Positions 8,810 to 58,100 of a stretch of 64,000 bases of DNA are shown here, one piece after another. The notes beneath the pieces are model-generated. The model worked only from the letters and a program-made list of their open reading frames with translations. It searched no databases and was not told the DNA's origin. A program made the translations under genes and the position numbers. The stretch is from Pseudoalteromonas piscicida (GTDB lineage: Bacteria > Pseudomonadota > Gammaproteobacteria > Enterobacterales > Alteromonadaceae), in contig NZ_CP011924.1 of the NCBI RefSeq assembly GCF_000238315.3, positions 1,652,501 to 1,716,500 of the forward strand. The letters run 5' to 3'. Within the stretch, counting starts at the first letter, position 1, and each line of letters begins with the position of its first letter.

Positions 8810-8970
8810 TTGTAAAAATAATACTTGTTGAGATTTATACTTTTTCATCACGTAAAGCTGTTACTTTGAACGATCCATATTTGTTTTGTTTTTCACAACA
8901 AAAAGATGCAGGGATAACCTTTTGGCAATAACTTCCCTCTTTTCAAGCACACAAAAACATGATTAAGATC

Positions 8971-8983
8971 GTTACGTTATAAC
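8971..8983. promoter_or_regulatory. Zur-like operator upstream of the TonB receptor operon
   Basis: The 13-mer gttacgttataac matches 10 of 13 positions of the gammaproteobacterial Zur core GTTATAATATAAC, with the dyad arms GTTA and TAAC at correct spacing, and continues into ATTTTT as in many Zur sites. It lies about 75 bases before the receptor's ATG, where the promoter should be. If real, the operon would be repressed by zinc. The match was made by eye and not scored against background. Confidence 0.45.
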
Positions 8984-9058
8984 ATTTTTAAAAATAATCA
9001 TTTGTATCGAATAAATGATGGTTCTTTTCACATTCGTTTTTGCAGTTGGAATAACAAA

Positions 9059-11163
9059 ATGACAAGGTCACTCCTGACAGTTAGCGTGCTTAGTAGCTTA
9101 TATTCTTCACTTAGTGTTGCCGAACAACCCATTGAAACAATTGATGTGCATGGCACTCGCGCGCCTCTTTACAGCACGAGAGACGTGAACGCTTCGGCAT
9201 TGGGGATGAAAGATCCGCAGCTTCTTCCTATTTCCATTCAATCATTTTCTGAAGAACTGATCAGCAATCAAAGAGTAAAAACGCTAGGCGAAGTCCTTGC
9301 CAACGATGCTTCTGTTCAAAATACCTCAATTGGTACGGTTTTCGACTTTGTGAGTCTGCGTGGCTTTCAACTAGATTGGACCAACGGTTTAAGACGCGAC
9401 GGTTTAGCGCTTGCCCCCTACCAAGATGTACCGCTAGAGAATATTCAGCGCATTGATATCGTCAAAGGCCCGTCAAGTCTCGTATCAGGCTTTAACAACC
9501 CCGGCGGTACCATCAACTATGTGACAAAGCGCCCAACCATGGACGCCTTTTTGGATGTCACAACAGAAGTACGTAGCCGTGGAGGAAAGTATTTACACAT
9601 CGATCTCGGTGGGCCAATTTCTGACGAGCAAACGTTCGGCTATCGTATTAATGCAGCAGCAGAGAAAAACGGTGACTTTACTGGTGGTGATGACTTAGAG
9701 CGCTATTTCTTTAGTGCAGCACTGGATTGGCAAGTCTCAGATCGCCTATTTATCCGATTAGACGGCGATTTCCAAGACAAAAGCACTGTATCACAGCCTT
9801 TGATAGGCCTTTCCAGCGACCCCAATGACCCTGACCGTAAAATATTACCGCCCTATGTCGACACCAGTGATGTATTGCTCGGACAACCTTGGGCAAAGTA
9901 TGAAACCGAGTCTTATAACCTAGCCGCACGTGCTGATTTTTGGTTGAACGACACGTGGCAATGGGTAAACCAAGCTGCGCTTTCTGGTAATGATAGGTTT
10001 ACCGTTTTTCCTGATATCTACTCGGTTGATACACAAGGTAATGTGCTGTCTGCCGCTATCCACGTTACCCCAGACGAAACGTATGACACGCTCTCCGCAC
10101 ATAGTTTTATCAGCGGTCAGCTTACCACCGCAGCAATTGAACATGAACTAGTCGTCGGCGTTAGTATTCGTGATTATGAGTCTAAGGATGGTCGTTGGTT
10201 TGAATTAACCAACCCCGTTGGCAATATTTTCAATCCAATTCATAGCAGTAAACCGCAGTTCCCTGATTATCCAGAACCAACCAAAACTGAAGCCTCTGAA
10301 AGCGCGTTGTTTATCACAGATACCTTGCACTTTAACGATGTATTTTATGCCACCTTAGGGCTGCGTCATATTCAATACAAAAAAGAGCAAACTCTACCAG
10401 GCCAAACTAAAACCACATTAGACGACCGAACTTTTAATACCCCATCATAGGCCTTAACTACAACCCAAGCGATCAGCTCGCGTTTTACGCCAGTTACTCA
10501 GAAGGCGCGGGGGAAGGCGGCGTTGCAGTCATCGGCAGCGGTGCAATAAATGAAGGAGAATCACTCGGCCCCCAAGAAAGCGAGCAAATTGAAGCCGGTA
10601 TAAAATACCAAACGGACACCATGAACTACTCGATAGCCGTTTTCGAAATAGAAAAAATGTTGGAGTACCACAATCACATTACTAACTATTTCGTGCAAGA
10701 CGGTGTCCAGTCACATAAAGGTATTGAGCTCAATGCCAGTGGCTCATTCGCTCACGGCCTTGCAACCGTAGCATCCATCACCTTGATGGACCCCAGCTTA
10801 GATAAGCTTGACGGCGAGCCCGCGCTTAATGGCAACACCCCAGCCAATGTGCCAGAATTTCAAGCGAATCTCTATGTCGACTACCAGTTGCCATTTTGGG
10901 AGGCATTAAGCATCAATGCGGGTATTTTCCATGTTGGTGAACGCGAACAAAACGTCAATAACACCCTACAGTTACCAGCCTACACGCGCTTCGACTTGGG
11001 CGCGAAGTACCACTTTACTGACATTAACACCACGCTTCGACTCAAAGCCGAAAACCTGTTCGACAAAGAATATTGGCTATCTGGCGGTGCCAAAGGCATA
11101 GATTGGGGAGTCGCTCCCGGTCGTGGCCGCACTTTTATCGCCTCATTAAGCGTGAGCTTTTAA
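9059..11163 (+). pseudogene. TonB-dependent (siderophore-type) receptor, frameshifted
   Basis: An outer membrane receptor of FhuA/siderophore type, about 701 aa if the frame is repaired. It has a signal peptide (MTRSLLTVSVLSSLYSSLSVA), TonB-box-like start (IETIDVHG), plug domain (VSLRGF, ERIDIVKGP-like QRIDIVKGPSSL, GGTINYVTKRP) and a C-terminal barrel ending in FIASLSVSF with the canonical terminal Phe. Translation breaks at the run CCCC (10440-10443): the first frame stops at 10448, while the other frame continues PIIGLNYNPSDQLAFYASYSEG, exactly where the family consensus follows. Adding one C restores it. This is either a real one-base loss or a sequencing error. I prefer the ATG at 9059 (GGA upstream, proper signal peptide) to the TTG at 9002. 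Confidence 0.88.
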
Positions 11164-11172
11164 GGATAATTC

Positions 11173-11892
11173 ATGACTACACCTGTTATTCAAATCAATA
11201 ACCTGCAAAAGCGCTTTGGTGAATACCAAGCGCTACAGGGACTATGCTTGAGCGTACATCAAGGTGAAATTCTAGCGCTGCTAGGCCCAAATGGGGCAGG
11301 TAAAACCACCACGATTAATTGCTTACTGGGCTTTTTACAACCGGATGCTGGGGAAATCACCATCGCTGGAATTAATCCACAGCATGACGTAGTAACGGCA
11401 AGGCAGCAACTGGCTTATATTCCTGAACAAGTCGCGCTTTATCCGCGACTTAGCGGACTTGAGAATCTCGCGTATTTCAGCAAAATGGCCAGCATAGAAA
11501 AGACCGACGAGGCCTTTCGCACACTGCTCGGTGAAGTAAAACTGCCAAGTCACGCTGTAGACAAACCCGTTGCAACCTATTCAAAAGGGATGCGACAAAA
11601 AGTGGGCATAGCCATTGCCCTTGCAAAGCAAGCCAAGGCATTGATTTTAGATGAGCCTACATCAGGTCTTGATCCTTCAGCCAGCCATGAATTTAGCCAG
11701 CTCATTCAGTCATTAGCAAAGCAAGGCGTCGCGATTTTAATGGCGACCCACGACTTATACCGTGCTCAAGAAGATGCCCATCGCGTGGCAATTATCAATC
11801 AAGGGCAATTAGTCGATACTTTAGTCTATGAGCAACTGCAAGAAGTCCAACTTGAATCCGTTTACCTCAAACATATCAAGGTGGGTGTCTGA
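11173..11892 (+). CDS. ABC transporter ATP-binding protein (ABC-2 type)
   Basis: A 239-aa ABC ATPase with Walker A GPNGAGKTT (residues 38-46), signature YSKGMRQKVGIA, Walker B ALILDEPTSGLDP and the switch histidine in MATHD. It belongs to the CcmA/NosF-like group that pairs with ABC-2 permeases. The next two genes are such permeases, with overlapping stop and start codons, so the three make one exporter-type complex. Start has AGGATA upstream, ten bases after the receptor stop. Likely role in this operon: export of the locus product or of its precursor (inference). Confidence 0.9.
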   Translation: MTTPVIQINNLQKRFGEYQALQGLCLSVHQGEILALLGPNGAGKTTTINCLLGFLQPDAGEITIAGINPQHDVVTARQQLAYIPEQVALYPRLSGLENLAYFSKMASIEKTDEAFRTLLGEVKLPSHAVDKPVATYSKGMRQKVGIAIALAKQAKALILDEPTSGLDPSASHEFSQLIQSLAKQGVAILMATHDLYRAQEDAHRVAIINQGQLVDTLVYEQLQEVQLESVYLKHIKVGV

Positions 11893-13292
11893 TGTTTCAA
11901 ACGACATTTAAAAAGGAATGGCTCGATACCAAGCGGCAGGGACAAGGGCTTTGGCTTGGAGGCATTGCAGTATTACTGCTCTTGCTTGCCTGCTTGACTG
12001 GTTTTAAAAGCCACCAAAGCTATCAGCAAGCCGTTACTGAAGTGTCCCAGTCAGAGCAATTACGCTGGCTAAATCAAGGTGAAAAAGGCCCCCATTCCGC
12101 CGCCCATTACGGTATTTATGTGGTCAAACCCACCACCCCACTGGCGGCACTCGATGCGGGATTACAAGCATACCAAGGGAATGTGTTGAGGCTTGAAGCT
12201 CATATTCGTAACGATAGTATGTTTAGAAGTGCGCAAGATAATTTGCCGATGTCACGTTTTGGCAGCTTATCACCGGCCTTTGTGCTACAAGTATTACTGC
12301 CGCTATTAATTATATTAATTGGCTACCCTCTACTTGCCCGAGAACGTGAGCAAGGCACCTTAAAACAACTACTCGCATCGGGCGCAAGCCCTGCAAAGTT
12401 GTTTATCGCCAAATGTGCGCTGCTTTTTGCTATTTCTTGCTTATTTTTATTGCCTGTTGCGCTTTTTTTACTTTATAGCCAAGTAACAAGCACGGAGCCT
12501 CATACACTCAGAAGTGGGTTATTTTTACTGTTTTATTTAGTTTACTTATTACTTTGGTCGTTACTCACCACCACGCTTTCAAGTTTACTGCCAACGGCAA
12601 GGCGCGCATTGATAACGCTATTGACCATTTGGGCATTTACAACGCTTTTACTACCAAAACTGGCGATGAATATCGCGACCACCATTCATCCGCAAGGTTC
12701 AGGTCAAGCATTTCAAGCAAGGCTTGAAAGTGAGGTTTATACCGAAGCACGAGTTGAAGCAATCGCAAAGTTCAAACAGCAAACATTGACTCAATATGGT
12801 GTCAGCAATGTGGAAGACTTACCCTTTGATTATGCCGGAGCACAACTCCAATTTGGTGAACAATACGCTGATAAAATCTTTGACCGCTTATTTTCAGCGC
12901 GTTTAGCTCAACTAGAAGCGCAATCACAAAGCTATCAACTTGCAGGGATGTTAACGCCGTTTATCGCAATACAAACGCTGTCGATGGCCACCGCCGCCAG
13001 CGACTTTACCCACCAGCAAGCATTTGAGAATGCGGCAGAGCAGCACCGCCGTATGATGCAAGAGGTGCTTAACTTTAATCAAAGAGATCATGGTCACAAA
13101 GCGGACGGACATTACACCGCGGGCGAGGAATTATGGCAGCAGATCCCAAAGTTCGCATTCCAATACCCCAATGTTATTCGTTACCTGCCTCACTACGTTA
13201 TCAGCCTGTTTAGCCTGAGCTTTTGGCTAATCGCTCTGGTGTTATTGAGTTTCTTCGCGATTAAAAAGCTGCGTTTGGAGGAGCAAAGATGA
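11892..13292 (+). CDS. ABC-2 type permease, first subunit (DUF3526-like)
   Basis: A 466-aa inner membrane protein. One N-terminal helix (GLWLGGIAVLLLLLACLTGF) is followed by a ~110-residue periplasmic loop, then a helix cluster (LLPLLIILIGYPLLA, LLFAISCLFLLPVALFLLY, LFLLFYLVYLLLWSLLTTTL, ITLLTIWAFTTLLLP), a second loop and a last helix near the C-terminus. The REREQGTLKQLLASG segment is typical of ABC-2 permeases. Its start overlaps the ATPase stop by one base, and its end overlaps the next gene by four. Confidence 0.85.
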   Translation: MFQTTFKKEWLDTKRQGQGLWLGGIAVLLLLLACLTGFKSHQSYQQAVTEVSQSEQLRWLNQGEKGPHSAAHYGIYVVKPTTPLAALDAGLQAYQGNVLRLEAHIRNDSMFRSAQDNLPMSRFGSLSPAFVLQVLLPLLIILIGYPLLAREREQGTLKQLLASGASPAKLFIAKCALLFAISCLFLLPVALFLLYSQVTSTEPHTLRSGLFLLFYLVYLLLWSLLTTTLSSLLPTARRALITLLTIWAFTTLLLPKLAMNIATTIHPQGSGQAFQARLESEVYTEARVEAIAKFKQQTLTQYGVSNVEDLPFDYAGAQLQFGEQYADKIFDRLFSARLAQLEAQSQSYQLAGMLTPFIAIQTLSMATAASDFTHQQAFENAAEQHRRMMQEVLNFNQRDHGHKADGHYTAGEELWQQIPKFAFQYPNVIRYLPHYVISLFSLSFWLIALVLLSFFAIKKLRLEEQR

Positions 13293-14758
13293 AACGCTTA
13301 ATGTTAGCTACTGAGTTTAAAAACCTCTGGCGAGAAAAGCTCGTACTCGCGCTGTTATTAACCACCAGCATGCTCGCGCTAGTGGCATTTCTTAACGCCC
13401 ATTACTTTGCTAAAAAACAGCATGACGTAGTACTTGCCGCACAGCAAATGCAGCAACAGGCCATCCAAGATGCCAAAGCTGGATTACCCGAAAGACTCGC
13501 CAGCACAGCAGACTATAAGTGGTGGGAAGACCCGTACGACCTGCGCGGGCAGGCTTTTTACTTGATGCAAAATTACGCCACCAAAGCCCCGCTTGCAACG
13601 TCGCCAATCGCAACAGGGCAAGCCGACGTATTACCTTACTATTTTAAGATGCTAATCAAAGAGAAACAGCACATCGTTCATCAATATGACTATGTTCACC
13701 CACTATCTCTATTGTTAGGCCAGTTCGATTTAAGTTTTGTGATTGTCTACTTACTGCCATTGCTCATTATTGGCATTTGCTTTAATGCCTTGGCAAGTGA
13801 ACGCCAAGATGGGCAGCTAAGACTACTGATGCTGCAAGGAGGCAGTGCGACCCGCCTTCTGACTTATCAATTATTGCTGCGAAGTGCGTTAATTGTGCTG
13901 CCATTTTTAAGTATTAGTAGCCTGCTTTTAATAACAATACGAGAGCAGCTAGGGGTGATTGAACTGCTGAGTTATAACCTTATCGCACTATGTTATTGTG
14001 GCTTTTGGATTGCCTTAACCGCTTGGGTAAATAGCAGAGCTAAAAGTGCGGCAAATAACGCAGCTACCTTAGTCACCTGTTGGCTTGCCTTGGTGATTGT
14101 GGTTCCAGCTTTGGTCAATACCAGCATCGCATTACTCGACCCAACCCCTTCACGAATTCACTATATAGATAGCCTCCGTGCCGCCAGCGACGATGCCCAA
14201 AAAGCGAGTGAAAAGACCTTAGCTCAGTATTTTCAAGATCATCCAGAGCTTGCAAAAAATGGCAGTGGTGCCAGCGATTACGCCACCAAAAAAATTGCTA
14301 CTATTAATTCTGTCGAACGCGCAATGGCAGCCCAAGATGTACGATTTTTTACGGCGCAACAAGCACAGCAACATAATGCGCAAAAGCTACAATATCTCTC
14401 CCCCGCACTCATCGCACAAACACTGTTGGTTGATTTAGCGGGCAATGGATTAGCACGTCATCACGCCTTTATGGAAGAAGTTGAAGCTCATCATCAAGCA
14501 CTACAAGGTTTCTTTGCCAACGAAATTGCCAAAGCCAATCAAAGAGGCGATTTTGCACCTTGTGAGGGTTGTAGCGCAAAGCCAACGCTCATGGATCTTG
14601 CGAATATTCCTCAATTTAGCAATGACTTTGCCACACCTGTGAACAACTACACGCCACTAATTTGGTTGCTGCTACTAGCCGTTGGCTTACTCTTTATAGC
14701 AAAACGCCACGTCAACAAGTTAGACAGTGCAAACAACAAAGAGGTGTTAGTCGTATGA
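13289..14758 (+). CDS. ABC-2 type permease, second subunit (DUF3526-like)
   Basis: A 489-aa permease with the same topology as its upstream neighbour: N-terminal helix, long periplasmic loop, FVIVYLLPLLIIGICFNALASERQDGQLRLLMLQG, several more helices and a final helix (LIWLLLLAVGLLFIAKRHV). GGAGGAG precedes the ATG. The end overlaps the decarboxylase start as ATGA, showing tight translational coupling between exporter and biosynthetic genes. Confidence 0.85.
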   Translation: MKRLMLATEFKNLWREKLVLALLLTTSMLALVAFLNAHYFAKKQHDVVLAAQQMQQQAIQDAKAGLPERLASTADYKWWEDPYDLRGQAFYLMQNYATKAPLATSPIATGQADVLPYYFKMLIKEKQHIVHQYDYVHPLSLLLGQFDLSFVIVYLLPLLIIGICFNALASERQDGQLRLLMLQGGSATRLLTYQLLLRSALIVLPFLSISSLLLITIREQLGVIELLSYNLIALCYCGFWIALTAWVNSRAKSAANNAATLVTCWLALVIVVPALVNTSIALLDPTPSRIHYIDSLRAASDDAQKASEKTLAQYFQDHPELAKNGSGASDYATKKIATINSVERAMAAQDVRFFTAQQAQQHNAQKLQYLSPALIAQTLLVDLAGNGLARHHAFMEEVEAHHQALQGFFANEIAKANQRGDFAPCEGCSAKPTLMDLANIPQFSNDFATPVNNYTPLIWLLLLAVGLLFIAKRHVNKLDSANNKEVLVV

Positions 14759-16089
14759 GTGACGCCTTCACTGCAAAATTGCATCCACAAACGCGAAGCC
14801 TGCTCGCGGAGCATCAAGCCAAGTTATTTGAATGGGCAGCGGCATTGGGAGCACCGCTACATTTAGTGTTTCCTCAGCGTTTTGCGGAAAATATCGAAAC
14901 CCTGCAAGCCAACTTTATAACGCTTAGGCTTGAGCATGAGATTTATTTTGCAAAAAAAGCTAACAAAGCCCAATGTTTTACTCAAGTCGCGTCTAATCAC
15001 GATATAGGAATAGACGTGGCTAGTGTGCAAGAGTTTGAACTTGCCCTAAGCGGTGGTATTCAAGGTGAAAAAATTGGTGTATCTGGTCCGCATAAATCAG
15101 ATGCACTACTTAGCTTAGCGCTTGTACATCAAGCGCTTATCGCTATTGACTCAAGTGCTGAGTTAAACTCCGTCATTACACTGGCCCGCCAGCGAAAGCG
15201 CCCTGCACGGGTGCTACTGCGTTTACAAACACAACCAACTAAAGCCTCACGCTTTGGCAGTTCACTGTGCCAGCTTACGCCATTATTGGCCCAGTGCCGA
15301 GAATACAAGGAGTGGGTAAGCTTGGAAGGATTTAGCTGCCACTTAAGCGGATACTGCCCACAAGCACGTGGCCAGAGCATTCATACTTTAATCGGTGCGA
15401 TAGACGAGGCTAGGCAAATAGGACTGTCGCCATCAAAAGTGAATATTGGCGGTGGCTTGCCCGTCTCCTATCTACAAAATGAGCAGTGGCAACAAGCCTT
15501 GGACTTTGAATGCTTTTTTGCAGGTAAAACCTTTGCAGGGTTTTATCCCTACCATAATGAGCAAAGCCCTGCGGATACCTTACACGCTATTTTGGCAGTG
15601 AAGAACACACATGGACAAACCGCATTAGCAGCATTACGCCAAAGGAGCCTTACATTAATGCTCGAGCCTGGCCGAGCACTGCTCGATGAAGCTGGTATTA
15701 GCTTGTTTAAAGTGCAAGGGACAAAGCCGCACCTAGGCACATCTGACTGTCATATCGCTACACTTTCGGGCTCAAGCTTATCGCTGTCAGAACAGTGGTT
15801 TGAAAGTGAATACTTGCCGAGTCCGCTGTTACTCACGGCACATTCAAACCGCAAACAAGGAGCGTATCGCGTGGCTTTTGGCGGTGCAACCTGTCTAGAT
15901 AGCGACATGCTAAGCTGGCGGTTTATCCCCTTGTCGCAACTACCACAGCGCGATGACTTAATGGTTTACCTCAACACCGCAGGATACCAAATGGATTCAA
16001 ATGAATCCGAATTTCACTCAATGCCATTGCCACGAAAAATCGCCGTAACGTGGGAGAACAACAGACTTTCTTGGCAACTACTTAGCTAA
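14755..16089 (+). CDS. SbnH-like PLP-dependent decarboxylase (fold type III)
   Basis: A 444-aa member of the Orn/Lys/diaminopimelate decarboxylase family, alanine-racemase fold. The PLP lysine is in YFAKKANK (Lys68); later come IGVSGPHKSD, GFSCHLSGYC, NIGGGLPVSY (phosphate-binding glycines), MLEPGRALLDEAG and ATCLDSDML near the C-terminus, where the second active-site Cys/Asp lie. In staphyloferrin B synthesis SbnH decarboxylates a citryl-Dap intermediate; the neighbouring SbnA/SbnB-like genes make that comparison natural, but no citrate-condensing synthetase is present, so the substrate here is unknown. The ATG overlaps the permease stop. Confidence 0.8.
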   Translation: MSDAFTAKLHPQTRSLLAEHQAKLFEWAAALGAPLHLVFPQRFAENIETLQANFITLRLEHEIYFAKKANKAQCFTQVASNHDIGIDVASVQEFELALSGGIQGEKIGVSGPHKSDALLSLALVHQALIAIDSSAELNSVITLARQRKRPARVLLRLQTQPTKASRFGSSLCQLTPLLAQCREYKEWVSLEGFSCHLSGYCPQARGQSIHTLIGAIDEARQIGLSPSKVNIGGGLPVSYLQNEQWQQALDFECFFAGKTFAGFYPYHNEQSPADTLHAILAVKNTHGQTALAALRQRSLTLMLEPGRALLDEAGISLFKVQGTKPHLGTSDCHIATLSGSSLSLSEQWFESEYLPSPLLLTAHSNRKQGAYRVAFGGATCLDSDMLSWRFIPLSQLPQRDDLMVYLNTAGYQMDSNESEFHSMPLPRKIAVTWENNRLSWQLLS

Positions 16090-16125
16090 AAAACACCCAA
16101 TAACACAACGTAAAGGAGCCTATTT

Positions 16126-17184
16126 ATGAACATAAATGCGCAGCATTCGCTCGCCTCAACATTGCACCTAACCCCTTATTTAAGGGTATCGCAAAGCATT
16201 GGTAATACCCCGCTAATGCAGTTTTTAAGCCTACCAAACGGTAGCAAACTGTATCTTAAGCTTGAGCAGTTCAACCCCACCGGTAGCGCTAAGATCCGAA
16301 TGGCGAAGTCTATGTTAGATGAAGCAGAAGCCAGTGGCCAACTGAAGCCGGGGGGCTGGGTCGTTGAGTCAACCTCCGGCAATACCGGCGTTGGTCTTGC
16401 ACTGCTTGCAGCGGAGCGTGGCTATCGTTTTACCGCTCTTGTGGATAACCATGCGGCAAAAGAGAAAATCAGTAATATGAAAGCTTTTGGCGCGGAAGTG
16501 ATCTGTGTTAGCGAAGCCGGAGACGACAGCTTATCGACTGATATTCGAGATGCAATGGCCGCAAAGCTGGCAAAAGAGCAAGGCGCATTTTGGACCGCCC
16601 AACACAATAATTTTGCCAATAGCCGCGGCTATACAGGACTGGCGCAAGAGGTCTTTTATGAACTTGGTGAACACATTACTCACCTTGTCGGTGCGGTTGG
16701 CACAGGTGGGTCGCTATGCGGCACAACAAGGGCTTTGCGCGACTTAGGTTGTCATCAACTCACAACGATTGGGGTTGAGCCTGTGGGTTCTGTGATTTTT
16801 GGTGGACCAGGACTGAATTATCATCAATCAGGAACGGGGACGCCGGAAGGCGCTGAGATAGGTCCAGTTATTGAGTATGAACTCATCGACAAAGGCGTGA
16901 AGGTATCTGACAAACAAGCGTTTAATACCGCCAGATACCTTGCCAAGCATTACGCCCTAATGGTCGGTGGTTCGGCTGGAGGGGTGATATACGAAGCACT
17001 ACAGGCGTTAAAAACCGCCCCCGCCGATAGCTTATTTGTAGTACTCGTTTGTGACGGTGGCGAGAAATATCTCGATACCGTATTCAATGATGATTGGATG
17101 GCAAAGCACGACCTTATCGATATTAACATCGAGCAGGAACTCTATGAGCTATTAATGCAATATAAACCAACCGCGAGCGCCTAA
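16126..17184 (+). CDS. sbnA: SbnA-like 2,3-diaminopropionate biosynthesis enzyme (cysteine synthase family)
   Basis: A 352-aa fold type II PLP enzyme. PLP lysine Lys56 in NPTGSAKIRMA, substrate loop STSGNTG (82-88), phosphate cup GAVGTGGSLCG and SAGG near the C-terminus. SbnA joins O-phospho-L-serine and L-glutamate to give N-(1-amino-1-carboxy-2-ethyl)-glutamate (ACEGA). The assignment over an ordinary cysteine synthase rests on the next gene being an SbnB-like dehydrogenase two bases downstream and on the DUF1015 protein nearby. AAGGAG is seven bases before the ATG. Confidence 0.82.
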   Translation: MNINAQHSLASTLHLTPYLRVSQSIGNTPLMQFLSLPNGSKLYLKLEQFNPTGSAKIRMAKSMLDEAEASGQLKPGGWVVESTSGNTGVGLALLAAERGYRFTALVDNHAAKEKISNMKAFGAEVICVSEAGDDSLSTDIRDAMAAKLAKEQGAFWTAQHNNFANSRGYTGLAQEVFYELGEHITHLVGAVGTGGSLCGTTRALRDLGCHQLTTIGVEPVGSVIFGGPGLNYHQSGTGTPEGAEIGPVIEYELIDKGVKVSDKQAFNTARYLAKHYALMVGGSAGGVIYEALQALKTAPADSLFVVLVCDGGEKYLDTVFNDDWMAKHDLIDINIEQELYELLMQYKPTASA

Positions 17185-17186
17185 CT

Positions 17187-18170
17187 ATGACTCAACAAAC
17201 TGTTCTGCCGATACTAAACGAAGCCCGACTGGCGCAACTTGATTTCCCTTATAGTAAAGTCATTGAGGTGGTGGAAAATGCCTTTCGCTCACTGCATCAC
17301 CCCGACTCTGCCAACCCACTTAAAGTGATTATGACGCCACAAGATGGCCGCTCCATCGCCTATAGTATGGCTGGCCGAGATGCAGCTAGTAATACCGTTG
17401 GCTTTAAAGTGGTCTACGAATACGACCCTGACAGAAGCCGTAACCAATATCAGTTTTACTCTTTTATCTTCCTTTGCGATGATGCCACAGGCCACCCTGT
17501 GGCCCTAATGGATGTAAAAGAGCTGGGCCCTATGCGCACATCAGCCACCTCCGCCTTGTTTGCAAAGTATGCCATTCATTCAGATGCCAAAAATGCGTTG
17601 GTTGTAGGCACAGGAGTTCAAGGGCAAATCGCTTTACCTATGCTCGTCACGGCATTACCAAAACTCACACACCTAACCGTCCACGGTAGCTATCAAGCAG
17701 GCTTGGAAGCGGTTCAGCAAAAACTAAAGGAGCATCACCCACAGCGACAAGTTGCGGTATCACAAGACTTAGAAGCTTCGGTAAGGCAAGCCGATGTGAT
17801 CCTTGCCGTTACTGGGTTGTCCGCCAAAGAAAACATTAAATATGAATGGTTGAAACCCGGCGCAGTGGTGATTTTGGTTGGCTATGGAATCGAAAAATCA
17901 GTGCTACACCGAGCTGATAGGTTGCTCACAACGGATGCAGAACAAATGAAGGTCACCGGAGACGATTTATTAGACGAGGACGGCAAGCTACCCACCGTTG
18001 ATGCGACATTGACTGAAATACTAAATGGTGAAAAACCGGCACGAACTCACCCTGATGAAATTATCTTTGTCTATAACAGCGGCATGATCATTACTGACGT
18101 GGCGCTCGGACGAGCCGTTGCGGACTTTGCCATCACACAAGAAAACGTGGAGGAAGTAACCCTATGGTAG
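17187..18170 (+). CDS. sbnB: SbnB-like 2,3-diaminopropionate biosynthesis dehydrogenase (ornithine cyclodeaminase family)
   Basis: A 327-aa member of the ornithine cyclodeaminase/mu-crystallin family with the NAD motif VVGTGVQGQIA (139-149) and the substrate-side GPMRTSATSALFAKY. SbnB oxidatively cleaves ACEGA into L-2,3-diaminopropionate and 2-oxoglutarate. The SbnA-SbnB pair is diagnostic of Dap supply for metallophores and antibiotics. Overlaps the MATE gene by seven bases. Confidence 0.82.
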   Translation: MTQQTVLPILNEARLAQLDFPYSKVIEVVENAFRSLHHPDSANPLKVIMTPQDGRSIAYSMAGRDAASNTVGFKVVYEYDPDRSRNQYQFYSFIFLCDDATGHPVALMDVKELGPMRTSATSALFAKYAIHSDAKNALVVGTGVQGQIALPMLVTALPKLTHLTVHGSYQAGLEAVQQKLKEHHPQRQVAVSQDLEASVRQADVILAVTGLSAKENIKYEWLKPGAVVILVGYGIEKSVLHRADRLLTTDAEQMKVTGDDLLDEDGKLPTVDATLTEILNGEKPARTHPDEIIFVYNSGMIITDVALGRAVADFAITQENVEEVTLW

Positions 18171-19540
18171 CTTCAGCGCGCACCGATATTTTTAAAGTAA
18201 GCCAGCTTGCAGGGCCGCTTATTCTGACCAATCTGCTCTACGTGGCAATTGCAACGATAGATCTTATCATGCTCGGTATGTTGAGCCCATTAGAGCTGGC
18301 TGCTGGCGGCCTCGCCATTGGTATTTTTAATCAATTTAGAACCATGGGAACGGGCGTAGTCACGGCAACGGGTAATTTGGTGTCTGATGCAATCGGCAAG
18401 GCAAAACTAGATCAGATCACTCCTCTTTTTAACGCCAGCATGCTTATCGGAACATTTTTGGGTCTACTGTTTGCCGCCGCGATGTTTGCCATAGAGCCAT
18501 TTTTAAGGTTTATCGGTACATCCGAGGCAATTGCCAATTTGACGACCCAATATTTAACCGTTGTCGCTTTGGGCTTATTACCCTGTTTTTGGTTTCAAAG
18601 CGTGCGGCATTTTAGTGTTGGATTAAAAAGACCAGGGCCATTGATGTTAATAACGGGTGTATCTGTTGTACTCACTATCGTGCTCAATTACGGTCTAATT
18701 TTTGGTCAGTTTGGCCTACCACAACTCGGCTTTGTGGGGGTTGCAGCCGCCACGTGTATCGTGCTGTATTTATCGTTTTTACTGTTTGTACTATTTGCCA
18801 AGCGCGATGACGTACTCAGCCCCTACCTCACTATAAAGTTTTGGCAAACCGACCGTGAAGCACTTAGTAAAACATGGAAAATGGGCGTGCCAATTGGCGC
18901 AACTTACGGCCTTGAAGCTGGTTTTTTCACCGTGCTGGCGCTATTTGTGGCAACACTCGGCGTTAATGCCTTAGCCGCCCACAACGTGGTTAGCCAAATG
19001 GTGTACATCGTATTTATGGTATCTGCCGGCATTTCATCTGCTTGTTCTATTTACATCAGTGAAGCCAATGCTGCGGGAGACTTTCATCATGCTAAACGCA
19101 TCGGCAATTTGGGCATTATTTGCGGTGCAGCGGTCATGTCTGTTTTCGCCTTAATCTATTTGTTCGTACCCGAATTTGTACTGCTGCCATTTTTAAGTGC
19201 AGAAGAATTACAAAACTCCGACGTCGTTGTTATCGCCATAGAACTACTCGTTATTGCCGCCTTTTTGCAGTTTTTTGACGCGTGGCAAAATATTGGGCTC
19301 GGTATCTTGCGTGGACTTGGCGATGTGAAAAGCACGCTAATGCTGTCTTTAATTGGCTATTGGTGTATTGGTCTTCCCGGTGCGTGGTTATTTCAAGAGT
19401 TTTTCTCTTTGGGAATTTTGGGCGTTTGGTACGCTTTAATGTTAGGGCTTGCGGTCACAGCGCTATCTGAGATTTGGCTTTTTAATCATAGGGCTAACCG
19501 TTTGCTTGAGCCCACATCACTCAAGGAGCAAAACGCATGA
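18164..19540 (+). CDS. MATE family efflux transporter
   Basis: A 458-aa, 12-helix multidrug/toxic compound extrusion protein: two similar halves, starting QLAGPLILTNLLYVAIATIDLIMLG and, mid-protein, WKMGVPIGATYGLEAGFFTVLALFV. MATE proteins export small molecules using Na+ or H+ gradients. Lying between the Dap genes and the aminotransferase, it probably exports the locus product or protects from an intermediate (inference), alongside the ABC-2 system. Confidence 0.88.
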   Translation: MVASARTDIFKVSQLAGPLILTNLLYVAIATIDLIMLGMLSPLELAAGGLAIGIFNQFRTMGTGVVTATGNLVSDAIGKAKLDQITPLFNASMLIGTFLGLLFAAAMFAIEPFLRFIGTSEAIANLTTQYLTVVALGLLPCFWFQSVRHFSVGLKRPGPLMLITGVSVVLTIVLNYGLIFGQFGLPQLGFVGVAAATCIVLYLSFLLFVLFAKRDDVLSPYLTIKFWQTDREALSKTWKMGVPIGATYGLEAGFFTVLALFVATLGVNALAAHNVVSQMVYIVFMVSAGISSACSIYISEANAAGDFHHAKRIGNLGIICGAAVMSVFALIYLFVPEFVLLPFLSAEELQNSDVVVIAIELLVIAAFLQFFDAWQNIGLGILRGLGDVKSTLMLSLIGYWCIGLPGAWLFQEFFSLGILGVWYALMLGLAVTALSEIWLFNHRANRLLEPTSLKEQNA

Positions 19541-20649
19541 CAACGACAATGCCAAACCCAGCCCGCAAAGAAGTCATTGCACTGCCGCCCTATGGTGCAG
19601 GACAAACCATTGAGCAAGCAACGGCGCGTAATCTCCACCCCAATATGATAAACCTCTCGGTGAATGAAAACCCTTTAGGGCCAAGTCCTGCAGCGCTTAA
19701 TGCTTTTAAAACACAGCTGCATACCGCTAGCTGCTATCCAGACAGTCAATGCACAGAGCTGAGCGAGCGCCTGTCCACTAAGCTTAACGTTACCAGAGAA
19801 CAAATTGTACTCGGCAATGGCTCCGAGGATGTACTCTCAATGCTCTGCAAAGCCTTTCTCAGTCAAGGCGATAAAGTGTTAGTGGCCAAGCCTACCTTTG
19901 CGCTTCATGGGATTTACGCCAATATGATGGGGGCAAAGGTACTGGAGGTGCCGATGCAAAGCGATTTGTCCTATCGAATTGATGATTGGCTCGATGCTAT
20001 CGCATGCTATCCAGACTTAAAAATGCTTATGCTTGCCAACCCGTCCAATCCTGTAGGTTGTACGTTTGATGCCAATAATTTGCAGCGCCTCATTGATGCC
20101 TGTCCGCTCAATACGGTTATCGTCATTGATGAAGCATACTGCGAATATGCACAAGGCCATAAACAGTTTACTGACGGCTTAGCGCTACTTCAAACACAGC
20201 CCCGCCCCTACGCGGTATTACGGACTTTCTCCAAAGCTTATGGCCTTGCAGGACTTAGGGTGGGTTACGGCGTAATGGCAAATGCCCAACTGGCGGATTA
20301 TCTGCACCGCGTACGTACACCGTACAATGTAAATCGACTAGCACAACTTGCTGCGATCGCGGTATTGCAAGATCCCTCCTATTTGGCAGACACGGTCACG
20401 CAAACGAATAGCGAGAGGGAAAAACTCAGCGCCGCCCTCACTGAGCTGGGTTATTTTGTCGCGCCAAGTCTAGCTAACTTTTTATTTATTGATGTCAAGC
20501 AGCCGTCTGCGCATGTCGCATCTTTGCTGCTGCAACAAGGAATAATGATAAAACCTTGGCTAGAATTAGGTTTTGATCATTTTGTGAGAGTAAGTATTGG
20601 ACTTCCTGAGCAAAACCTTAGGGTGCTTGAAGCCTTTAAACAGTTGTAA
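19537..20649 (+). CDS. HisC-like class I/II aminotransferase
   Basis: A 370-aa fold type I enzyme resembling histidinol-phosphate aminotransferase: NENPLGPSP (41-52), GNGSEDVL, ANPSNPVG, DEAYCEYA and PLP lysine Lys233 in RTFSKAYGLAGLRVGYG. Being last in an operon with Dap enzymes and not among his genes, it is more likely a biosynthetic aminotransferase or CobD-like decarboxylase of this pathway than HisC itself (inference). Overlaps the MATE gene by four bases; an intrinsic terminator follows. Confidence 0.82.
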   Translation: MTTTMPNPARKEVIALPPYGAGQTIEQATARNLHPNMINLSVNENPLGPSPAALNAFKTQLHTASCYPDSQCTELSERLSTKLNVTREQIVLGNGSEDVLSMLCKAFLSQGDKVLVAKPTFALHGIYANMMGAKVLEVPMQSDLSYRIDDWLDAIACYPDLKMLMLANPSNPVGCTFDANNLQRLIDACPLNTVIVIDEAYCEYAQGHKQFTDGLALLQTQPRPYAVLRTFSKAYGLAGLRVGYGVMANAQLADYLHRVRTPYNVNRLAQLAAIAVLQDPSYLADTVTQTNSEREKLSAALTELGYFVAPSLANFLFIDVKQPSAHVASLLLQQGIMIKPWLELGFDHFVRVSIGLPEQNLRVLEAFKQL

Positions 20650-20654
20650 GTATC

Positions 20655-20673
20655 GCCCTCTTCGAGGGCTTTT
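20655..20673 (+). terminator. Rho-independent terminator of the Dap operon
   Basis: GCCCTC-TTC-GAGGGC followed by TTTT, six bases after the aminotransferase stop. It marks the end of the 9.06-20.65 kb transcription unit and overlaps the stop codon of the convergent gene. Confidence 0.8.
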
Positions 20674-21562
20674 AAGCACAAGCTGCCTGCTGATTTAAAT
20701 GGTAAAGTACTTGGCTGTCGGCCTTATGCGTAAATAAGGTCGACTTTTCTGGAAAGTACTTGCCTGCTTTAGCAGCAGCAAAGATGTCTTCAATTTGGGG
20801 AGCGCGACAGAGGGCAGTTACAACATGAGCGTCATCACTCAGCTCAACTTTATTTTTAGACCACAGCTCCTCAAACGCTGGCAGTGACTGCAGTGCTCTA
20901 CGCAACTGGGTCTGAATAAGATAAAAATCGCTTGTCGCGCGTCGTAGGACAAAATATAGAGCAGCTTTCCCCAACCAAATAGTATAATCGGCCTCAGTCT
21001 CCGAGGATTCACAGATATCAAAATTGCTAAGGTGCTGTTTGAATTTGGTAACATCTACAGCTTGTGTGTAAGATGCCTGCACCGCGAAACTCGTTATCAC
21101 CGCATCTTGCTGTGGAACTAACCATGCCATCATCCGAGATTGAGGCGCATGACGTTGGCTTGCTGCAAACATCCTGTGATGCCCATCTGCAATTAGCCAT
21201 TGCTGGTGCATTGAGATCTGCTGCCTGAATTCTTGTAGCACGTAAGGGCTTTCAACAGCATAGAGGCGATGAGTACACTCACCGCAATCACTGTGCCACT
21301 GCGCAGTTTCAACACATTCCGCTTGCCATCGCACCTTGTCCAAATTAAGTTTTCCGACCAAAAGACACGGGGGTAACAGCAACTTCTCGAGCTGAACACG
21401 CTTTTTCAGCGCCATAGCATGGGTAACCGAAACCGACTCGTGAGGCAGAATCGCTTGCTCAGGTAACACTGAAACGTCAAGCTCGGCCAAAATGCCTGTA
21501 ACCAAAATACCACCTTGCTCCACTTGGTAAAGATGAAGTGGCCCATCCGTTATTGTGATCAT
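20672..21562 (-). CDS. DUF1015 family protein, SbnI/SerK-type putative free-serine kinase
   Basis: A 296-aa protein with the DUF1015 signature IADGHHR (124-130) and the C-terminal FPEKSTLFTHK segment. Family members SbnI and archaeal SerK phosphorylate free L-serine to O-phospho-L-serine, the substrate of SbnA. Finding it convergent to and directly after an SbnA/SbnB operon supports that role here. SbnI also acts as a regulator in Staphylococcus, so a dual role is possible. I start at the ATG 21562 (AAGG eight bases upstream); the frame continues upstream but with non-conserved sequence. Confidence 0.75.
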   Translation of the reverse strand: MITITDGPLHLYQVEQGGILVTGILAELDVSVLPEQAILPHESVSVTHAMALKKRVQLEKLLLPPCLLVGKLNLDKVRWQAECVETAQWHSDCGECTHRLYAVESPYVLQEFRQQISMHQQWLIADGHHRMFAASQRHAPQSRMMAWLVPQQDAVITSFAVQASYTQAVDVTKFKQHLSNFDICESSETEADYTIWLGKAALYFVLRRATSDFYLIQTQLRRALQSLPAFEELWSKNKVELSDDAHVVTALCRAPQIEDIFAAAKAGKYFPEKSTLFTHKADSQVLYHLNQQAACA

Positions 21563-21726
21563 AAAATAAACCTTGCACCATTTTAGATACAATATAACAT
21601 ACCATAAATTGAGTAACATCAAGTTTACATGACAATTTATACCGACTTGTTTAGTGTGGTTATTTCTTTGCCTCAATAATCAGAAAAAATTCAATAAGTT
21701 TGCTTTAACTTACTGAGCTTTTTGCA

Positions 21727-31730: not shown

Positions 31731-31788
31731 CTCCAAAATGGGGTCGTCCCCGCCAGTAAAAGAAAGTTCTGGAGGTCGTCCACCAGAG
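31731..31788 (-). promoter_or_regulatory. Guanidine-II riboswitch (mini-ykkC) controlling sugE
   Basis: Read on the minus strand, two hairpins with identical ACGA tetraloops stand in tandem. The first, CUGGUGG-ACGA-CCUCCAG (31769-31786), has one internal U-U mismatch; the second is GGGG-ACGA-CCCC (31740-31751). ACGR loops flanked by G-C pairs in two adjacent stems are the definition of the guanidine-II class. The second hairpin lies just before the GGAG Shine-Dalgarno (31731-31734) of sugE, so ligand-induced loop-loop pairing should expose the ribosome-binding site, giving guanidine-induced translation. Confidence 0.92.
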
Positions 31789-42768: not shown

Positions 42769-45700
42769 TTACAATGAGTTTAAAAATGCCAACACGGCTG
42801 ATTTATCATTTGCTGACAAACTTTCGTAAGCCACCCTCGCTGCTTGCGCTTCACCATCATGCCATAAAATAGCTTCTTCAATCGTTCGCGCACGACCATC
42901 GTGCAGATAGCTTGGCTCAGCGGTACAAAACTCATTGCCTTGCCCACCTAACACATTATCAACACCACCTGTCACACAAGCAGACAATCCAATCCCCCAT
43001 AATGGCGCTGTTCGCCACTCAGCACCGCTCGCGATGCCTTCACCTAAGTTATCCGCAAGGCCTGGGCCCATATCATGTAGTAATAAATCGGTATACGGAT
43101 GGATCGTTTGCGCACGTAACTCCGCAAATGGATGATACTCACTGGTTTCAAATGTTGCTGTATGGCAACCTTCACAGCCAATTGAGGTAAAGCGTGCCTT
43201 TCCTAATTGCACCTCAGGGTCGTCAAGCCCACGCTGCGCTCTCACACCCAATAAAGCGATATATTTGCTTAACGCAGTGAGATGTTGATCAGACACTTCT
43301 ACACCGCCACCTCCGCAGCTTGATTGTGATGCCCCACAGTCAGGATTTGGAAATACCGAGTTGGTTACCCCCATATCCGTATTAAATGCACTAGCGACTT
43401 GGTGTTTAATTGATACCGCCGCCGCTTTGTAGCCAAAGCGTCCTAACCGTGTTTGACCAGTAATCGGGTCGTTCACACGCTGCGCTTTGCCCGAAATACC
43501 GTCGCCATTACTGTCGTGTTCATCGGCCAAGGCTAACACCGCACTCTCTGGTATCGCTTCAAGTAAGCCCAAGCCCACCAGCTGAGGCGCGATACGGGCA
43601 GAATAACGTGCTGGAGCGGTTTTGCTAAATTGGTAATTGGGCGAACGTAAGCCATTATTTTCAGTCCACGAGGCAATCTTTACGTCTCCCTCGCCTTGCG
43701 TCTCGGTATCTATGCCTGTGTTTTTAGGCTGTAACACATTCCCCAATAAGGGATGGGCGTTGCCATTGATATCGGCCACTTTAAACACCCATTTTGCCAA
43801 TGAGCCGCCAATAGCTGGTGGAGCCGCACGACCATTGCGAACATGGCAAGCTGCACAACTGTCATTGATATAATGCGGGCCTGACTTTCCAACCACCGCG
43901 CTAAACACGCCATTTTCTCCGTTGCGTTCATCGTGCTCACCATTAACAAAACTACTGTGGTGAACACGTCGCCCCTGAACAAATGCCTGTCCATTTTGGC
44001 TCGATAAATTGGTCGCCATTTGCATAAAGTGATTATCAGGCTCATTGGTGTAATTGTATGGCAATGTGGTTTTGCCTCCTAACCACCCCGCTTCTGCAAT
44101 CGGGTAAGAATCTTCGCGTTGTGATGATGGATCAGCAAAGTCGCCAACGGTTTTCCATGGGACAAGCCCTTCACCTACCATGTATAAATACGTTGTACCA
44201 TAATAATTTTCTCGTCCTTCTGGTGGCGCATCAAGAAATTGGCTAACTTCAAACTCCATGCGCTGACCAACTTCAAGAGGCAAAAAGCCTGCCGCAGGGT
44301 CCCAATTTAGCGGTCTGTAGTCATCAATGATCACTCTGTAACGATATTGATCACCTGAATCACTTATCTTATTAAAGTTCGTATCATAACTGCCATTATC
44401 AAGCTCAACGACCGCACCGCCACCAAAGTAATTACCGTGGTACTCAGCAACTGTGCCTAATCCACGATACCAAGCACGAAATTCGCGCGCACCGAGTTTC
44501 CATTCTGTAATAAAGGTCACTTCAATACGTGAGCCGCCTTTTGCAACAAAATCAGCGATTTCAAATTGCGCGGTACGATGCGTCCAGTAATGCGATAAAT
44601 AATGGTCATAGATTTGAAACTGGTCTTCTTTTGCATGGCGGTCTCGACCGCGATCAGCAAAACGCGTAATTAGCGCATCTCCACGGTCATAACTCACTGC
44701 TTGCTCTAAAGGTGTTGTTGAATCATAAAGTGGCACAATAGTGCCAAAGCTGATCTCACAACCTTGGCTATCGACTTGGCGCCCCGTTGGTGTATTGGGA
44801 CATTGGTCTAGATTATCTGGCACACCATCGTTATCGCTATCATTATTAGATGAACCAGCGATATTGAACTCAAGCCAGTTTAGATTTAACTCGCCACCCG
44901 CCATTTCAACACGAACGGTATGTACGCCCTCATTTAACGTAATCGACGCAATATTTTGACTAATAAAGGTTTGCCAGCCACCCGTAGCAGGCACAACGGT
45001 ACTGGCAACTAGATTACCATTCACAAGAACGTTATACGCTCCGTTACCAACTTGGGAGGCAACGCGCGCGGTCAAGTTATAGCTTCCCGCGCCTAAATTA
45101 GCCTGATATTCAAGCCACTCTCCCGCCGACGTCCAACCCACGTTGTAACCACCGCCGTTGTCGCTGGTCAGCTCAATATCAACATCATCATTGCGATATT
45201 CGCCACCTGTATTTCCTGCATCGTTATCAAAATAGTTGCTGTAGTCTTCCGCTTCGATACGAAGTTGTTCAGTGATTAAAATGCTACATCCATCGGTGTT
45301 TACCACATCCCCCACAGGCGTATCTGGACACTGATCGATACCATCATTCACGCCATCACCATCGCTATCATTACCAGCTGAGGATTCTGAAAGTATATAG
45401 GCCTGCTCTGCGGTATCTACGACAGTTCCGTCCTCCTGTAGGTAAGTGAACCAAAAACTAACCACATCCCCCACTTCTAGCCCAGATATTGTGAGCTCAT
45501 TGCGACCATTAATCACTTGCATGCGGACATTTTGCTGCACACCGCCGTTGACTCGATAATGAACATCCGCCCAGCCGGTAGTGTTAACATAGAAAGTTAA
45601 GGTATCCAGAGAGACCTGCTCCAATCCATCGGGTAAATTACTCAGTGGGCAGCCATTCGCATCAACTTCTTCATTTGGCTGAGTATTTGGACACTGGTCG

Positions 45701-55299: not shown

Positions 55300-56013
55300 C
55301 TAAATATAATGCCTGTCTGGTAGTACTGGCATATCCACATAATGACAAAACTCAGAGTTAACTCTGCCAACTAGTTTAAAAACGTCACCTTCCAACTCAT
55401 AAAAGTCTCTTCTTGGAAGAAACTCAATTTCTATGCCTACAGTAGCAAGTAGCTCTTTCACTTTCTGTTGATGTGGCTTGTATTTAAAAGACCCTTGGCT
55501 CAGGTCTACAACCTTGCTGTTGCTGTCCTTTACCACTGCATCAAGTTGGTTCAGAAAGTTTATGTAGCTTTCAGATGGAGTTAACACTCCCTCTCTAGAT
55601 TCTGGAAAGATCAAATTGTAAAATTTGAATGAGTTAATCGCTTTTGGTGATAATCGAAGAGTATTCGATGCTTCTGTAGAAAGAAATCCTTTAAATAATT
55701 GATAGTGAGCTAAATGATTTGAGAATTTTGCTGTCTCTTGATGGCTTATATAGCTATGTAACGCAATATAAATACCATATACAGTAGCAACACCAAGGCT
55801 AACCGAAAACCCTATCTCCAAAGCTTTAATTGATGATGCGAAAATAGAAGCAAAATTCTGGGTGCAGGTATTGCTCAAACAAAAATCCATGTTACCTACA
55901 TTGTTACTACGAAAAGTTGCTATGTAAAATACGATAGAAACAATCAAGCTAAGTAAAAAAGGGAACATACTAAAACACCAAAACTTAGTTTTTAGCTCAT
56001 TAACTTTTATCAT
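55300..56013 (-). CDS. Two-TM retron effector (Ec48-like)
   Basis: A 237-aa protein with two membrane helices (about 14-32, SMFPFLLSLIVSIVFYIA, and about 70-88, FSVSLGVATVYGIYIALH), a Cys pair between them, and a soluble C-terminal domain (HLAHYQLFKGFL...). It overlaps the RT gene by 14 bases. Membrane effectors of this layout belong to Ec48-type retrons, in which the effector depolarises the membrane on phage infection. My identification is by architecture and memory of the family. Confidence 0.7.
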   Translation of the reverse strand: MIKVNELKTKFWCFSMFPFLLSLIVSIVFYIATFRSNNVGNMDFCLSNTCTQNFASIFASSIKALEIGFSVSLGVATVYGIYIALHSYISHQETAKFSNHLAHYQLFKGFLSTEASNTLRLSPKAINSFKFYNLIFPESREGVLTPSESYINFLNQLDAVVKDSNSKVVDLSQGSFKYKPHQQKVKELLATVGIEIEFLPRRDFYELEGDVFKLVGRVNSEFCHYVDMPVLPDRHYI

Positions 56014-57974: not shown

Positions 57975-58100
57975 GGGTGGCAGTCTTACCAGCCACATCC
58001 CGGCACACAAATCATACGCTGTGGCTGCTTCGTTCCCGACCTGACCAGATTCACGTACTATTGTTGCGAGAGGACCAATAAGACTACCATTGAGGGCCTT
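57975..58100 (-). ncRNA. ffs: 4.5S RNA (SRP RNA)
   Basis: The minus strand contains the conserved SRP RNA core CUGGUCAGGUCGGGAACGAAGCAGC and GUGUGCCGGGAUGUGGCUGG in order, forming the tetraloop hairpin bound by Ffh. The closing stem pairs GGTAGTCTTA (near 58088) with TAAGACTGCC (near 57985). Ends are set within about 15 bases. Confidence 0.92.

Follow-up and report, generated by a model that had tools for sequence, protein, structure and literature searches.

The [S,S]-ethylenediaminedisuccinate ([S,S]-EDDS) of Amycolatopsis japonicum has been described as a zincophore that is regulated by Zur and lies outside both the nonribosomal peptide synthetase (NRPS) and the NRPS-independent siderophore (NIS) pathways (PMC4993170, PMC6103462, PMC9252823), with aspartate named as one precursor (PMC9252823). 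A cluster for ethylenediaminesuccinic acid hydroxyarginine (EDHA) is reported at scab_5231-5311 of Streptomyces scabiei 87-22 (PMC8914351), and aes-like clusters, labelled 'aminopolycarboxylic-acid' by antiSMASH and including a predicted EDHA cluster, are reported for Burkholderia anthina clade II (PMC10702961). In this study, we describe a locus of Pseudoalteromonas piscicida contained in a stretch of 64,000 nucleotides (C1:1652501-1716500, contig NZ_CP011924.1; hereafter the window) from a genome of 5.49 Mb in two contigs, and propose that it is probably a zinc-repressed, Zur-controlled cluster which directs the formation of an aminopolycarboxylate zincophore resembling EDDS and which differs in type from EDHA-type clusters. 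The proposal draws on results computed here, namely the gene content and its conservation, a clade of related loci with its promoter boxes, the predicted fold of a DUF1015 protein, and differences between cluster types that are concentrated in the SbnB-like enzyme.

The locus comprises an operon of nine plus-strand genes at 9059-20649, which overlap or nearly touch, and a DUF1015 gene that converges on them, its start being most likely the ATG at 21562. All of the gene families named in a preliminary description of this DNA were present in the open reading frame (ORF) list and in domain scans of the locus proteins. In window coordinates, the features are:

8970-8984, no strand assigned: Zur-like operon box, read as TGTTATAACGTAACG on the minus strand and lying 75-89 bp upstream of ATG 9059, the likely receptor start
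9059-11163, plus strand: TonB-dependent siderophore-type receptor with Plug and barrel, its first piece TIGR01783-like below the cut-off
11173-11892, plus strand: ABC transporter ATPase (ORF and domain scan)
11892-13292, plus strand: ABC-2 permease with DUF3526 (ORF and domain scan)
13289-14758, plus strand: second ABC-2 permease with DUF3526 (ORF and domain scan)
14752-16089, plus strand: pyridoxal phosphate (PLP) decarboxylase of the LysA/ODC fold in an SbnH-like position (domain scans), present in 80/80 related loci
16126-17184, plus strand: SbnA-like PALP, PLP beta-replacement enzyme (TIGR03945, 235 bits against a cut-off of 350), present in 79/80 related loci
17187-18170, plus strand: SbnB-like, OCD-family NAD(P)-dependent imine/amino acid dehydrogenase (TIGR03944, 108 bits against a cut-off of 327)
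18164-19540, plus strand: MATE exporter (domain scans)
19537-20649, plus strand: HisC-like aminotransferase (domain scans, solved-structure matches)
20672-21562, minus strand: DUF1015 protein with predicted SbnI/free serine kinase fold (domain scan, predicted structure)
21585-21604, minus strand: Zur box of the DUF1015 gene, TGGTATGTTATATTGTATCT, 23 bp before its ATG

The SbnA-, SbnB- and SbnH-like names hold at the level of the family; neither the SbnA-like nor the SbnB-like protein reaches its NCBIfam cut-off. The SbnA-like gene is the sole close copy in the genome (the next-best match is 32% identical), and the closest SbnB-like proteins, 97-98% identical, are from P. piscicida and P. flavipulchra. 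The receptor frame is interrupted near 10450, which leaves ORFs 9002-10450 and 10621-11163; in relatives it is one open frame, of 701-720 amino acids in six Pseudoalteromonas loci (L009-L014) and 706 in Thalassomonas (L015). As the preliminary description had stated, no NIS, NRPS or ATP-grasp family was matched among the 10 locus proteins scanned.

Loci of S. scabiei (L073) and B. anthina (L060) share with the window the trio of SbnB-like, decarboxylase and SbnA-like enzymes together with MATE. The former, the only S. scabiei 87-22 locus in our set, holds the trio, MATE and a TauD oxygenase, and is taken as the EDHA cluster on species and gene set; the oxygenase fits the hydroxyarginine of the product. 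The SbnB-like enzyme of the window is 44% identical to that of L073, and the SbnB tree described below supports common descent. The S. scabiei locus has an IdeR-like site (14/19) and no HisC match, whereas the window has HisC and Zur boxes, and none of its proteins that were scanned matched TauD. The window cassette thus appears to be an aminopolycarboxylate (EDDS/EDHA-type) gene set, a trio lacking NIS and NRPS enzymes, linked to EDHA and, by extension, to EDDS. To [S,S]-EDDS of A. japonicum, which is compared here by its published description, the likeness lies in Zur control outside NRPS and NIS.

Like the sbn operon of staphyloferrin B, the window has SbnA- and SbnB-like enzymes, a protein of predicted SbnI fold and a decarboxylase that takes the position of SbnH. 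The sbn operon uses NIS synthetases; in the P. piscicida genome IucA/IucC was not matched, and the SbnA- and SbnB-like proteins fall below the family cut-offs. Staphyloferrin B is described as serving iron (PMC3179956). Opine zincophores such as staphylopine and pseudopaline are formed through reductive amination by a dehydrogenase, and no nicotianamine-synthase-like or opine-dehydrogenase match was found among the 10 locus proteins scanned. Pseudopaline is reported as a small zinc chelator with Zur control and a TonB receptor, in which it is like the system predicted here (PMC6103462). Rhizobactin B of a Pseudomonas was considered and set aside, as PMC7676072 points to other genes. Among the literature matches listed, drawn from a range that leaves subscription literature mostly outside and judged by title or beginning of abstract, none described a cluster of the present type, and 'aminopolycarboxylic' and 'Pseudoalteromonas' were mentioned together only in work that by title concerns a Streptomyces.

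Related loci were sought with an alignment of 20 SbnB-like proteins in one genome per species, and the best 80 of 108 loci were used. Clustering of their frames placed the decarboxylase in 80/80, the SbnA-like enzyme in 79/80 and MATE in 74/80, so that decarboxylase, SbnA-like, SbnB-like and MATE are, by sequence family, a conserved cassette of Proteobacteria and Actinobacteria. By neighbourhood, 39 loci have HisC (HisC type), 37 have a family directly before SbnB of which the two members scanned both match TauD (TauD type), and 4 have neither. Loci of the HisC type come from Pseudoalteromonas, Thalassomonas, Cellvibrio, Pseudomonas, Microbulbifer, Acinetobacter, Pollutimonas and a number of actinobacterial genera, and those of the TauD type from Burkholderia and its relatives, Oxalobacteraceae and Streptomyces, among others. 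In the synteny comparison that had been suggested with the preliminary description, the core trio and MATE recur across phyla, with HisC in 39 of the best 80 loci. What sets the HisC type apart is the HisC-like aminotransferase, to which Pseudoalteromonas and Thalassomonas add the SbnI-like DUF1015 gene. Within Pseudoalteromonas, 11/108 genomes (the host included) carry the SbnB-like gene, and the five loci L009-L013 are colinear with the window.

The SbnB tree split the HisC and TauD halves with support 100/100. A thinned tree of 46 rows, including nine HisC-less Amycolatopsis loci, kept the HisC type as one clade (100/100); the TauD type was not one clade, the HisC-less Amycolatopsis rows nesting among its rows. 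Actinobacterial HisC rows sit inside proteobacterial ones; with a root placed at midpoint only, this suggests that the HisC-type cassette moved between phyla. One member of the clade, the Xylophilus ampelinus locus L027, has neither a HisC nor a receptor match. In Amycolatopsis, 23/80 genomes matched the SbnB query, 4 at 90-100% identity with HisC adjoining and 19 at 41-45%. The latter, HisC-less form gave 20 matches in those 19 genomes, and in 10/10 of its loci viewed in wider context neither HisC nor TauD was matched. This commoner form differs from the window in its lack of HisC and is taken as the likelier EDDS type, since three enzymes should suffice for EDDS; an initial assignment of the A. 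japonicum EDDS cluster to the HisC type was dropped after these ten loci had been viewed.

The Zur-like site gttacgttataac quoted in the preliminary description was located at 8971-8983, in the operon promoter. The operon box fits 18/20 positions (two of them N) of the Escherichia coli Zur motif as published in PMC6103462, and three sites in the 64 kb reach that score, the DUF1015 box among them. A 15-bp pattern drawn to fit the operon box has 0.41 chance matches expected per window and occurred in 29/100 shuffles; the box was rejected as a significant single site and is significant only through comparison across genomes. For each complete locus (mostly 15-21 kb), we asked whether its best match lies in the interval from -350 to +60 relative to the first gene. 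The main tests used consensus strings for Zur, actinobacterial Zur, IdeR and Fur, and the reruns used the motifs given in PMC6103462 and PMC5472717.

For the Gram-negative HisC type, the consensus Zur string had its best match at the operon start in 17/19 loci, with a mean of 4.6 for shuffled palindromes, 0/100 of which reached 17. The E. coli motif of PMC6103462 likewise gave 17/19 (0/100 shuffles as good). The misses were L010 and L023 with the consensus string and L013 and L023 with the published motif; in L023 the ORF start was placed too far upstream, the best site being at 6158. These counts are inflated by close relatives (six Pseudoalteromonas, nine Pseudomonas) in a set that spans six genera. 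Among HisC-type loci without a plus-strand receptor, 19/20 of them actinobacterial, the actinobacterial Zur string gave 16/20 (0/67 shuffles; misses L016, L028, L041 and L050) and the Streptomyces motif of PMC5472717 gave 13/20 (3/100), whereas the E. coli motif gave 8/20 with 27/100 shuffles as good, as expected. Locus L016 stands in this group solely because its receptor is on the opposite strand; its best Zur match (16/22), the top of its locus, is found where the receptor and ABC genes diverge. The promoter box is conserved in relatives, which points to a Gram-negative Zur regulon.

TauD-type loci without a receptor had IdeR sites at the operon start in 19/23 (1/93 shuffles; misses L047, L062, L078 and L082). 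Proteobacterial TauD loci with a receptor gave no clear Fur signal (7/14; 13/100 shuffles as good), and the equation of TauD type with iron is therefore shown for actinobacteria only; 3/14 of them matched the Streptomyces Zur motif of PMC5472717 at 10/11 (1/100 shuffles as good). In the HisC-less Amycolatopsis form, the best Zur-string match (12-13/15) lay 43-60 bp before SbnB in 4/10 loci viewed and farther upstream in three others (627 bp in L168, and about 4.5-4.7 kb in L172 and L174, where an ABC gene follows the site); L169, L170 and L175 had no match upstream of SbnB. Locus L170 (genome G173) is a HisC-less cassette with an IdeR-like site (16/19) and no good Zur site, possibly a switch from zinc to iron. 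A second AT-rich Fur/Zur-like site in the window, at about 8794 and some 265 bp before the receptor ATG, matches the actinobacterial Zur string at 12/15, and sites resembling it occur at other distances in relatives.

Across the host genome, the pattern TGTTATANNATAACA at up to 2 mismatches gave 56 and 63 sites against 108 and 106 for the reversed control; as it was not enriched, the counts were taken as uninformative and neighbouring genes, inspected by hand at seven places, were used instead. The genes with a site at or before them were a Fur-family gene with an amidohydrolase gene behind it, merC-DUF1826, a gene for a TonB receptor rich in histidine, one for GTP cyclohydrolase II, a histidine-rich protein lacking an assigned family, an alkaline phosphatase, and a helix-turn-helix gene with no known link to zinc. 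Several of these neighbours are typical Zur targets, and we read the Fur-family and amidohydrolase pair as a putative zur and a pyrC paralogue. The 15-bp core of the DUF1015 box is one base off the boxes at the Fur-family (zur-like) and merC genes. A double Zur-like box at C2:415988-416024 precedes a 450-amino-acid histidine-rich protein (L116 2549-3901) with no Pfam match, possibly a periplasmic zinc chaperone.

Fixed differences between the types are found almost exclusively in the SbnB-like enzyme. Between 41 HisC-type and 36-37 TauD-type sequences, the number of such positions (fixed at 85% or above) is 13 for SbnB, 2 for SbnA and 0 for the decarboxylase, even though divergence is about the same in SbnB and the decarboxylase (mean identity 0.452 and 0.468; SbnA 0.565). 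The SbnB positions 68, 76, 78, 88, 90 and 92 surround an invariant Lys74, and 119 and 121 lie beside an invariant Arg117; by analogy with the family these would be catalytic or substrate residues. Position 78 is Glu in the HisC type, Lys in the TauD type and Arg in the HisC-less Amycolatopsis form, in a comparison that used nine loci of the latter and left out L175 and the 4 neither-type loci. Read most simply, the types would part in their substrate at the SbnB step, the HisC type no longer taking a keto acid of the dicarboxylic kind; one supplied by the HisC-like enzyme would fit in its stead, and histidine as the source is a guess.

The host has a second HisC-like gene, which adjoins a frame read by eye as HisB. 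The cluster HisC is therefore not the sole candidate for histidine synthesis, and its enzyme is probably not that of the histidine pathway. In 17/17 aligned cluster sequences (the window and 16 of 39 loci) Lys stands at a position that is Arg in the other HisC-like protein of the genome and in four solved chains, which represent three HisC proteins; this Arg binds the substrate phosphate. Solved structures were also tried as a guide to the substrate; the best matches were histidinol-phosphate aminotransferases, and with Lys for Arg in 17/17 cluster enzymes this guess was rejected.

The predicted structure of the DUF1015 protein has the fold of SbnI and the free serine kinase SerK, a likeness that came from a second look at the Foldseek ranking. 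SbnI and free serine kinases make O-phosphoserine, the substrate of SbnA, and we propose from the model that the protein may supply it to the SbnA-like enzyme. Its DGHHR and C-terminal K-[ST]-T stretches align in order with Pyrococcus 1vk1, a weak match (E 0.85) next to that of the unrelated 5v4d (61 residues, E 0.0087). The Zur box ahead of the gene was seen in Pseudoalteromonas. No publication on the function of DUF1015 appeared among those listed in our search; a ParB-fold survey, PMC12704722, places 'DU1015' among fusions of the ParB fold.

Substrates, product, metal and the sequence of steps are derived from homology and context, and the detailed order given here is tentative. At low zinc, Zur would leave the two boxes and the two convergent units would be expressed. 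The DUF1015 protein, as an SbnI-like serine kinase, would make O-phospho-L-serine, whose phosphate the SbnA-like enzyme would swap for an amino acid attached through its amine; with aspartate as the probable partner, an N-(2-amino-2-carboxyethyl) amino acid would result. The LysA-fold decarboxylase would then strip the carboxylate next to the free amine to leave an aminoethyl (ethylenediamine) arm, the HisC-like aminotransferase would provide an alpha-keto acid, and the SbnB-like dehydrogenase, working in the building direction, would couple the two by reductive amination. MATE, perhaps with the ABC-2 unit, would export the chelator, and the TonB receptor would retrieve its zinc complex.

The preliminary description had proposed a small, possibly zinc-controlled aminopolycarboxylate zincophore made without a classical synthetase. 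Gene content, spread of the cassette and Zur boxes make this the best explanation, with product and zinc response at the level of prediction. Its derivation of 2,3-diaminopropionate (Dap) from SbnA and SbnB was kept for the Dap skeleton and given up for free Dap, which is probably no intermediate; more likely the skeleton is assembled on an amino acid from the start, and its decarboxylation afterwards yields the ethylenediamine bridge. The suggested new way of assembly does not apply to the decarboxylase, SbnA and SbnB, because that trio is common to EDHA-type clusters; the type is set apart by the HisC-like aminotransferase and, in Pseudoalteromonas and Thalassomonas, by the DUF1015 gene, both of which had been listed without a defined role.

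Several points weigh against the zincophore proposal. The operon's own Zur site is imperfect, the host-genome pattern is not commoner than its reversed control, and the named host sites were chosen by their neighbours. The AT-rich strings overlap: Fur scored 13/20 (6/96 shuffles) in HisC loci without a plus-strand receptor, and Gram-negative HisC loci also scored 12/19 with actinobacterial Zur (1/61) and 6/19 with IdeR (3/98). The receptor is frame-broken in the host, DUF1015 was matched in just 7/80 loci, the site upstream of it in Thalassomonas (L015) is poor, and L027 belongs to the HisC clade without HisC. The EDDS system was set beside the window by description and is probably not of HisC type; NRPS genes occur in all 22 carriers searched, so that an NRPS may use the cassette product; and the pathway, the zinc response and the binding of Zur are all predicted.

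As to the product, a zincophore class not described before can be envisaged, with an ethylenediamine bridge, a succinyl arm from aspartate and a second arm for which HisC would supply a keto acid that is not dicarboxylic, possibly imidazolepyruvate; SbnB would be the gate that sets the second arm, and the Zur-controlled DUF1015 serine kinase would feed in O-phosphoserine. Such a histidine-bearing EDDS analogue would have a staphylopine-like donor set reached by a different route. We regard this as conceivable, though hardly the expected outcome. A little less probable still is that the locus makes [S,S]-EDDS itself, aspartate entering through SbnA and oxaloacetate through SbnB, with HisC regenerating oxaloacetate or otherwise helping. 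The core trio, the same as in EDHA-type loci, Zur control as reported for EDDS (PMC4993170, PMC9252823) and the missing HisC of L027, as if dispensable, agree with this; however, the HisC-type SbnB differs at fixed positions from both other types, as at position 78, and the HisC-less form commoner in Amycolatopsis fits EDDS better, a Zur-like site lying no more than 60 bp from SbnB in 4/10 of its loci viewed.

It is improbable that the cassette supplies an NRPS of the host with free Dap, or its decarboxylated form, to be built into the NRPS product. SbnA and SbnB homologues do occur in the staphyloferrin B, zwittermicin and viomycin clusters, whose products contain Dap (PMC3179956). The genome search suggested with the preliminary description gave no IucA/IucC match (the E. 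coli control was positive) and 41 matches to NRPS condensation domains; 0 of these fall in the window, from which even the nearest is over 300 kb distant. Among the 22 other genomes that carry the HisC-clade cassette (21 with HisC, and L027; assemblies of unstated completeness), condensation domains were present in 22/22 and IucA/IucC was without a match in 11/22; NIS is therefore not needed. From context an NRPS is an unlikely customer: the cassette has its own exporter, its own Zur box in many genera and a receptor in most Gram-negative HisC-type loci, and the decarboxylase found in 80/80 loci would be useless for Dap supply.

Less probable again is an EDHA-like iron siderophore cluster in which the Zur-like boxes are misread Fur boxes. 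The weak match at about 8794, the IdeR boxes of sister TauD-type loci in Streptomyces, the Fur score in HisC-type loci without a plus-strand receptor and the binding of iron by such chelators favour it. Yet in the Gram-negative HisC type the Fur consensus gave 5/19, no better than shuffles (44/96 as good), against 17/19 for Zur, and iron control of that type was rejected; the DUF1015 box moreover matches the host boxes at merC and the gene read as zur, and TauD was not matched in the window proteins scanned. A frame-broken remnant with no present function in this strain is equally improbable: the receptor frame break speaks for it, but all other operon frames are open and ten other Pseudoalteromonas genomes keep SbnB, and five loci, L009-L013, share the gene order of the window.

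Elsewhere in the window, a minus-strand region at 55300-57268 encodes a reverse transcriptase with a match to PADLOC RT_IV (550 bits) and, behind it, a 2TM_IV protein (231 bits); judged from these proteins, it looks like a type IV retron defence system. A Guanidine-II riboswitch (31739-31787) and a bacterial small signal recognition particle RNA (57984-58080) lie on the same strand, as does a 1480-amino-acid frame (42769-47211) that oddly fuses GH16-like and CBM6/35/56 domains to a di-haem oxidoreductase (DHOR) domain at its C terminus.

The predicted zincophore family to which the P. piscicida locus would belong spans Pseudomonas, Acinetobacter and marine bacteria to Streptomyces, and appears to follow a modular rule in which a constant trio is combined either with an oxygenase and iron control or with an aminotransferase and zinc control. 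A DUF1015 protein gains a concrete role to test, the supply of O-phosphoserine, and Gram-negative bacteria gain a likely TonB pathway, regulated by Zur, that would serve an EDTA-like chelator, while the extra aminotransferase and the serine-kinase-like gene suggest a product not yet described.

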